64,000 nt of DNA, from NCBI GenBank assembly GCA_019636845.1, contig JAHBWV010000001.1:1550001-1614000 (forward strand), written 5' to 3'. The notes under the pieces are model-generated. The model ran no database searches, had not been told where the DNA came from, and was given only the letters and a program-made list of their open reading frames with translations. Source of the stretch: Phycisphaeraceae bacterium (lineage in GTDB: Bacteria; Planctomycetota; Phycisphaerae; Phycisphaerales; UBA1924). This document shows, piece by piece, positions 22,040-30,145 of this stretch. Within the stretch, counting starts at the first letter, position 1. Each line of letters starts with the position of its first letter. Both the position numbers and the translations under genes were made by a program.

Positions 22040-25000
22040 TTGAACGCCAACACGTCGTTCCGGTGTGCCGTCATCGGCACGGGCAGCTTGCTCGTGCAGT
22101 CTGCGGAAGAGCTGCGCTCGCGCGGCCACGCGATCCTCTGCGTGGCCTCGCCAGATCCGAAGGTCGCTTCATGGGCCGCATCCAATAAGGTGCCCCACGT
22201 CGCAACCTGGGCCGAGCTGGAGGCCTCGGTTCGGGGCCAGCAGGTGGATCTGCTCTTCAGCATCGTCAACGACGAGGTGCTGCCCCCTTCGGCCCTGACG
22301 CTGCCTTGCGTGATGGCGATCAACTACCACGACGCGCCGCTGCCACGCTACGCGGGCATCCACGCGACCTCGTGGGCGCTCATGGCCGGTGAGAAGGAGC
22401 ACGCGATCACCTGGCACGTGATGTCCGATCGCGTCGACTTCGGCGATATTCTGGTCCAGGAGCACTTCGGGATCGCGCCCGACGATAACGCGCTCACGCT
22501 CAACGCCAAGTGCTATGCCGCGGCTCAGCGCGCGTTCCGAACGCTCCTCGGCCAACTCGAGCGAGGCGCCACGACTCGAAAGCCGCAATCGGAAGCGGAC
22601 CGCACTTTCTTCGGCCGCCACAAGCGCCCGGCGAACGCGGGCATCCTCGATCCCAACACGCCGGCAAAGTCGCTGGAGAATCTTGGGCGCTCGCTCGATT
22701 TCGGTGTCTACGAGAATCCGCTCTGTGCCGTACGCATTTGGACAGGGGATCGCTTCATTGTCGCGTCGAGCATTGCCCTCGCCGAGTCCGGCCCGCACGC
22801 CCTCCCCGGAACGATCATCAATGCCGGTCCCGATTGGCTCCGTATGGCCGCATCGGACGGCACACGGGATGTGCGCCTGCTCGGCTTGAAAGAGCTGGAC
22901 GGCTCGCCCGCGAACCTGACAGATGCTCGCTTCGCCGTCGCACGCACGCTGATGCCGCCGCCTGCGGAGGCACTGTCCGAGATCGTGAAGGTGGATGCCG
23001 CGGCTCACAAGCACGAGAAGAAGTGGGTTGCGCGCCTCGGCGCGATGAGCCCGCTCGTGATACCACTGATCACAGGCAAGCCAACCGGTGAGTCCGGTGT
23101 GCTGACGATCGACATCGGAGCAGGCGAAGCCACGTCCACAGCGGCGTTGTTCTGCGCGTATCTCGCGCGGGTCTCGCGAGCCGCCTCTTTCGACCTGCTC
23201 CTGCACACACCGGGTCAGGTCCGAGTCGGCTCCGCGCCTGCCGGGCTGTTCGACACGCACGTTCCGCTCAAAGTCGAGTGTGAGCCGACAGACCAGGTTC
23301 CCGCGTTCTCCGATCGCGTGCGTGCATCGATCGCGGATGCGGAGCGCATGGGCTCCTTCGCCCGTGATGTCGCCATCCGCTTCCCAACGCTGCGGAATGT
23401 CGCGGAGCTCAAGCAGAACGCCGGCTGGCACGCCGCGATTGAGCTGGGACTCCCGAACGGCACGGTGCCGCGCGCTGCGATCACACTGCGCGCCGATGCC
23501 TCCGGCCAGGTCTCGCTCGTGTTCAGGCGCGAGATCGTCGACGAGAAGAACGCTCGCGCGATCGCCGAGCAGTTCCAGGTGCTCTTGAAGTCCGCCGATG
23601 CGGGCGCGAAGACACTTTCGGGCCTCGACTTCACACCCGCGCATGAACGCACGCGCGTGCTCGACACCTTCAATGCAACAAAGACGCCGTACGAGATCGG
23701 CCTGCGACTTGGCGACCTGATCCGCCGGCGCGTGAAACAGCATCCCGATGCCCCTGCCCTCGTCTTCGAGGGCCGCGTGGTGAGTTACGCGGAGCTTGAT
23801 GGTTTGGCGTGGGGTATCGCGAGGAAGCTGCGGTCTCTGGGGGTGAAGCCGGGGACGCTGGTGGGTGTGTGCGTGGACCGGAGCGTGGAGCTCGTGGCGG
23901 CGTTGGTGGGGGTGTCGTACAGCGGCGGGGCGTATGTGCCCTTGGATCCCGGGTACCCGGCGGACCGGCTTGTGGGGATGTGCCAGGACGCGAAGATGCC
24001 GGTGGTCTTGACGCGTGGGGATGAGCTCTCGCGTGCCGGCGCGGCATTCCAGTCCGTGCCCGGTGGAGTGCAGGTTGTTCGTCTGGATGACGGGCCACAC
24101 GGGAAGGGGATCACGCCCTCGGAGCCGTTGGAGCTTGTGGGGACGGAGGATGATCCGGCGTACGTGATCTTCACGTCGGGCTCGACGGGAAGGCCGAAGG
24201 GCGCGATGAACGCGCACAAGGGGATCGTGAACCGTCTGTTCTGGATGCAGGAGGCGTACCAGCTGGACGGGCGCGACCGGGTGATGCAGAAGACCCCGTA
24301 CTCGTTCGACGTCTCGGTGTGGGAGTTCTTCTGGCCCCTGATCACGGGCGCATCGATCGTGGTGGCCAAGCCCGAGGGTCATCGTGACAGCGCGTACCTG
24401 GTGGACCTGATCAAGCGTGAGCGTGTGACGACGATGCACTTCGTGCCGTCGATGCTGCGTGTCTTCCTGGAAGAGCGAGGATTGGAGTCCTGCGACTCGC
24501 TCCGCCGCGTGGTCTGCTCGGGCGAGGCGTTGCCCACGGACCTCGTAGACCGGTTCTTCACCCGGATCCCGCACGCGAAGCTGGCGAACCTGTACGGCCC
24601 GACCGAGGCGGCGGTGGACGTGACGAGCTGGGAGTGTCGCCCCAACCAGCCGATCGTGCCGATCGGCAAGCCGATCGCGAACACGCGGATGTACGTGCTG
24701 GACCAGGAGCTTCGTCCGCTGCCCGTGGGCGTTCCTGGCGAGCTGTACATCGGTGGCGTGCAGGTGGGCATGGGATACGTCTCACGCCCGGAGCTGACGG
24801 CCGAGCGGTTCATCAAGGATCCCTTCAATCAGCCCGGTGGCCGGATGTACAAGACGGGCGACCTGGGCCGGTGGCTGCCCGATGGTTCGATCGAGTACCT
24901 GGGTCGTATCGACGACCAGGTGAAGATCCGCGGCTTCCGGATCGAGCTCGGCGAGATCGAGCAGGTGCTGAGCAAGCAGGCGGGTGTGAAGGACGCGGTG

Positions 25001-30145: not shown

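Follow-up and report, generated by a model that had tools for sequence, protein, structure and literature searches.

Within the 64,000-nucleotide stretch of planctomycete DNA analysed here (hereafter the window) lies a bimodular non-ribosomal peptide synthetase (NRPS) gene, at positions 22040-30145 of the forward strand, whose open reading frame encodes 2701 amino acids from an uncertain TTG start. Its Pfam domains are PF00551 and two each of PF00501, PF13193, PF00550 and PF00668, and its order is formyltransferase, condensation (C)-like remnant, adenylation domain A1, carrier protein PCP1, C, A2, PCP2 and epimerisation domain (E). The C-like remnant was read by eye from known motifs, and on the same footing we take the last PF00668 stretch to be the epimerisation domain. 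The gene is a Phycisphaerales-like NRPS, and its name-bearing relatives belong to a Phycisphaerales MAG, PDA_C_MAG.39 (MAG.39 below). Across the whole A1-PCP region the closest solved relatives are linear gramicidin synthetase A, which is likewise formyltransferase-initiated, and then Txo2 and others; in the pocket region they are Txo1, Txo2 and FscH. A second NRPS gene with a C-A-PCP-thioesterase order in Pfam (30190-34245, forward strand) provides a third module that lies outside the homogenisation described below, its A3 block being 40% identical to the A1 block in amino acids. It is followed on the same strand by a 4'-phosphopantetheinyl transferase (34242-34925, PF01648), which is likely the partner of the NRPS; homologues of this transferase adjoin the NRPS at the loci L028, L025, L029, L030 and L031. 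Upstream of the NRPS, a Ser/Thr kinase fused to WD40 repeats stands beside an ECF sigma factor (15961-19185, 19862-20842), and this neighbourhood is kept in the congener G067.

The A domains of the first gene appear to share one substrate. A1 and A2 both read DVWH-x-SLVDK, a motif taken by eye from the sequence, with an assumed numbering of the signature positions. A3 of the second gene, by comparison, reads VDWV-x-SLADK-like, which we take to be a beta-alanine signature, and the full string was not found in the literature searched. Serine signatures are given as DVWHLSLVDK and DVWHMSLVDK, with positions 299 and 330 variable, in a published account (PMC12283262). The A1 and A2 signature matches these except at variable position 299, so that serine is predicted for both modules, which agrees with the serine adenylation domain named in the preliminary description of this DNA. 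The product would likely start with formyl-serine followed by a second serine.

Exact self-comparison of the window reveals that positions 23750-25054 and 26981-28285 of the bimodular gene form a single base-identical run of 1305 bp at an offset of 3231, just as had been described, and this pair is the sole direct repeat of at least 100 nt reported in the window. Genome-wide, there are two full copies and one weak match of 75 bp. High similarity had also been noted to continue for some 300 bases, and it indeed does so with 19 differences between the copies in the approximately 290 bp directly 3' of the perfect tract; identity per 100-bp window falls there through 98, 94 and 90 to 74%. When site patterns against G067 are taken into account, the homogenised block of module 1 extends from 23744, just before motif A1, to a sharp end at about 25342, just 5' of the carrier-protein GGDSIL motif (25346-25363), and that of module 2 from 26975 to 28573 at the same offset, both on the forward strand. 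The block thus comprises the A core, the A C-terminal subdomain, the linker and the PCP up to about one third of its length, and the earlier view that the duplication is confined to the A domain, with the PCP outside it, has to be widened. The stretch 25055-25342 is the end of the block that lies outside the last conversion tract in the window species. A cluster of C-ending codons is present at about 25259-25283 in window copy 1 only, outside the perfect tract; the corresponding codons mostly end in G in window copy 2, in the copies of MAG.39 and in the two of G067. The cluster could be left over from sequence that escaped conversion, or could have come in by a short import.

Orthologues of the bimodular gene are found in three of the four genomes of the genus (G000, G067 and G120) and are absent from the fourth congener, G100; G120 and MAG.39 are probably one genome. 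A search of the family at a threshold of E<=1e-100 matched 12 of 163 genomes, six of which carry the two-module gene, namely the three of the genus and, with 59-62% identity along almost their entire length, G011, G024 and G068 from three other genera. The remaining six, all of genus g60, have a different NRPS at 27-30% identity. G067 is a single-contig genome with a full-length two-module gene.

The two copies in the window and the two in G067 were placed in a codon alignment, and variable sites were classed as concerted (copies agreeing within each species while the species differ) or paralogous (copies differing, each matching the same copy of the other species). Such a comparison of the A domains and their flanks in relatives had been proposed in the preliminary description, and its outcome is clear-cut: the block (23744-25342) holds 134 concerted and 0 paralogous sites, whereas the flanks (23483-23743 and 25343-25600) hold 2 concerted and 188 paralogous sites, so that the A-block copies agree within a species and the flanks follow the module. 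In the block, the copies are 98.6% identical to each other in the window and 96.7% in G067, against 88-89% between orthologues, and paralogues within a species are thus closer than orthologues between species. The longest run of agreeing variable sites in the four-copy alignment was 159 in the window and 51 in G067; upon permutation of the variable sites neither run was reached in 5000 trials (0/5000 each, with a permutation maximum of 16 for the window), and the same held when permutation was restricted to the block (runs of 159 and 48, 0/5000 each). This identity pattern is present in two genomes and in part in a third, all three of one genus.

The perfect tract of the window contains no differences at approximately 332 synonymous sites. 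Between the window species and G067, dS is 0.44-0.48 in the perfect tract; outside it, the E and C domains give 0.41 and 0.42, and the part denoted F-C* gives 0.80. By the rule of three, and with steady rates assumed, the last homogenisation in the window species would lie no further back than about the most recent 2% of the interval since the two species diverged. A DNA-level constraint on the block was considered and is ruled out, given that its synonymous sites diverge between the species as fast as those of the C and E domains.

The homogenised tracts are discrete, sharp-ended and different between lineages. While the window has one tract of 1305 bp, G067 has perfect tracts of 332 bp at an offset of 3219 and 311 bp at an offset of 3243, separated by a diverged stretch with a dS of 0.18 and 12-bp indels. 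In MAG.39, one contig ends 377 bp into the copy-1 block, with 12 differences from copy 2 up to that point, and contig L023 runs from within the copy-1 linker to within the copy-2 linker, its first and last 140 bp being identical. These breaks fit a long identical tract in between, with an estimated 1 kb or so of the middle of copy 1 missing. The identical 140-bp ends of L023 mark where an assembly of the short-read type failed inside the repeat block. Further, the left edge of the block is common to all three species within a few bases. At that edge copy 1 of G067 is of the module-2 type, and copy 1 of the window and copy 1 of MAG.39 share another type. Since G067 copy 1 has the module-2 type there, its last left-edge exchange would have run from copy 2 to copy 1, a direction polarised at a single edge site; the polarity of the individual internal differences in G067 is mixed.

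Overall, the explanation we put forward, with a probability of about 0.93, is concerted evolution through gene conversion that recurs, within a single old NRPS gene, between the A-PCP blocks of its two modules. The blocks would overwrite one another repeatedly through homologous recombination without crossover, which would keep the copies nearly identical within a species while the species drift apart. The footprint of these events would be about 1.6 kb. It would open shortly ahead of the A-domain motif A1 and close shortly ahead of the GGDS phosphopantetheine motif in the PCP; outside these limits the two copies have probably diverged too far for recombination. The latest event or events in the window species would have spanned at least 1305 bp of the footprint. 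Because the predicted signature is that for serine in either copy, the exchange should leave the product unchanged. That recombination is the mechanism, that it is neutral and that RecA-dependent homology drives it are our inferences.

Two simpler accounts of the repeat have to be weighed against gene conversion. The preliminary description had offered a very recent duplication or active gene conversion, and of these only the latter stands. That a recent duplication of the A-PCP block in the window species made the second module would account for perfect identity over 1305 bp, but two congeners carry the two-module gene, as do members of three other genera, and the flanks of copies 1 and 2 pair by module between the species. 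Since the flanks match in this manner, the modules are older than the species; a recent tandem duplication is therefore ruled out, and we see next to no chance of it. An artefact of assembly or polishing, in which one copy was collapsed onto or overwritten by the other, would concern this genome only. It was the source of the earlier warning that the repeat is a likely place for an assembly error, and it has some appeal, given that a perfect repeat of 1.3 kb is too long for short reads to span and that contigs of the fragmented MAG.39 assembly, from a congener, do end within the block. However, the 3.67-Mb genome is in four contigs with the window inside one of 3.49 Mb, the 19 differences right after the tract should have been erased by a collapse too, and the single-contig G067 is homogenised at different places. 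An assembly error is hence very improbable here. The recombination hot spot that had been suggested is borne out as far as recurrent exchange is concerned; the loss or gain of modules that was expected with it was not seen in the orthologues examined, of which MAG.39 is not readable through.

The block is also distinct in base composition. More G-ending codons had been remarked upon in the repeat than in its flanks, and at fourfold sites G/(G+C) is indeed 0.66 and 0.68 in the two window blocks, against 0.47-0.50 in the rest of the gene. It is 0.66 and 0.65 in the G067 blocks and 0.72 in copy 2 of MAG.39, whereas other parts of these NRPS genes lie at 0.47-0.52. The excess rises and falls at the block edges and is uneven inside, going down to 0.42-0.44 in one 180-bp stretch of G067. 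The other genera have no A-specific G excess, or a weak one (G024).

Several candidate causes were considered. Fourfold G+C is 0.834 in the A1 block of the window and 0.841 in the A2 block of MAG.39, compared with 0.79-0.90 outside; because it is not raised, the skew is not that of ordinary GC-biased gene conversion, which is set aside as the cause of the codon bias. As for the causes of a hot spot, the four blocks have 36, 36, 20 and 25 relaxed G4 motifs on their coding strands, numbers close to or below their codon-shuffled means (33.5, 33.4, 28.3 and 31.1), which removes G-quadruplexes, and a Chi-like motif is rejected in view of GCTGGTGG, which we take to be the E. coli Chi sequence, occurring once in each window copy and in no G067 segment. 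G-quadruplexes and Chi-like motifs likewise fail to account for the G skew. It is conceivable that recurrent conversion carries a strand-asymmetric mutation or repair bias, unlike ordinary GC-biased conversion, and so writes the compositional signature, but this we regard as improbable.

An old import or a mosaic origin is favoured as the source of the skew. In its fullest form, the block would have been imported from another bacterium into the ancestor of the genus and would then have reached both modules, with conversion maintaining its homogeneity. This proposal adds a foreign source to the gene-conversion explanation and does not replace it. The raised fourfold G/(G+C) inside the block in all three congeners speaks for such an origin, as does the comparison with 13 other open reading frames of the window, in which none of 80 block-sized windows exceeds 0.576. 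On the other hand, a search of 400 genomes of the order and 392 of the phylum found nothing close to a donor outside the family, the best match there having approximately 51% amino acid identity, while the nearest relatives are the same NRPS in the three other genera of the family, at 58-70%. Moreover, six of eight strict diagnostic sites of the block have the module-1 residue of those genera. A foreign donor is thus a tentative proposal that we consider doubtful.

Beyond the genus, a tree grouping the module-1 copies of all genera is rejected (AU p of 9e-7 for DNA and 3e-45 for protein), mainly because both copies of the genus sit together. Copies within a species are 74% identical in DNA in G011, 63% in G024 and 77% in G068, and 75, 62 and 70% identical in protein, compared with 75-76% between the module-1 proteins of these genera. 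Codon composition differs greatly among the three, and the G068 copies, whose base composition is extreme, group in DNA (support 100/100) and not in protein. The A2s of the other genera are split from the A1s and the genus copies with a support of 98/96, and the genus and the A2s also form one side of a branch (72/67); as both branches are present, the genus joins the tree at a point between the A1s and the A2s. The two strict diagnostic sites left are one of A2 type and one other, and 25 relaxed sites divide into 12 of A1 type, 3 of A2 type and 10 others. These patterns amount to a lean towards module 1 as the source in the ancestral exchange.

The locus is a natural and clean case of gene conversion within a peptide synthetase from a little-studied phylum, and in related species the tract ends can be placed to the single base. 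Their common footprint, which takes in motif A1 and stops short of the PCP GGDS motif, would constitute a naturally tolerated A-PCP exchange unit and could inform NRPS engineering. It also cautions that module duplications are not datable from A-domain trees and that such genes break in fragmented assemblies.

The process itself is already known for NRPS and PKS domains. A search of the literature by title returned nothing on this planctomycete NRPS; what is new is a well-resolved instance with unusually sharp edges. Medema et al. 2014 (PMC4256081) report concerted evolution of PKS and NRPS domains, in which domains within a cluster are closer to each other than to their counterparts in related clusters. 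Their cases include KS/AT domains as well as A and C domains from daptomycin, A54145 and CDA, the A domains of calcium-dependent lipopeptides being among them. The present locus resembles these systems in the greater likeness within the cluster, and differs in having two copies only, within one gene of a planctomycete, with tracts resolved at the nucleotide level and edges shared by congeners. Recombination of A domains and subdomains is described as diversifying NRPS products (Baunach et al. 2021, PMC8097286; Calcott et al. 2020, PMC7486941), and here too the exchange takes place within the A domain, its breakpoints lying close to the domain start and to conserved motifs; in those studies it changes the amino acid, whereas the residue predicted here stays serine. 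The tendency to retain the native A subdomain, noted by Baunach et al., is not followed, as the footprint takes in both that subdomain and a portion of the PCP. Booth 2022 (PMC9205934) remarks that conversion homogenises. In the McyA adenylation domains of cyanobacteria (PMC3640908), gene conversion altered substrate specificity; as in McyA, conversion here replaces most of an A domain, and unlike in McyA, it appears, to judge from the predicted signatures, to be silent.
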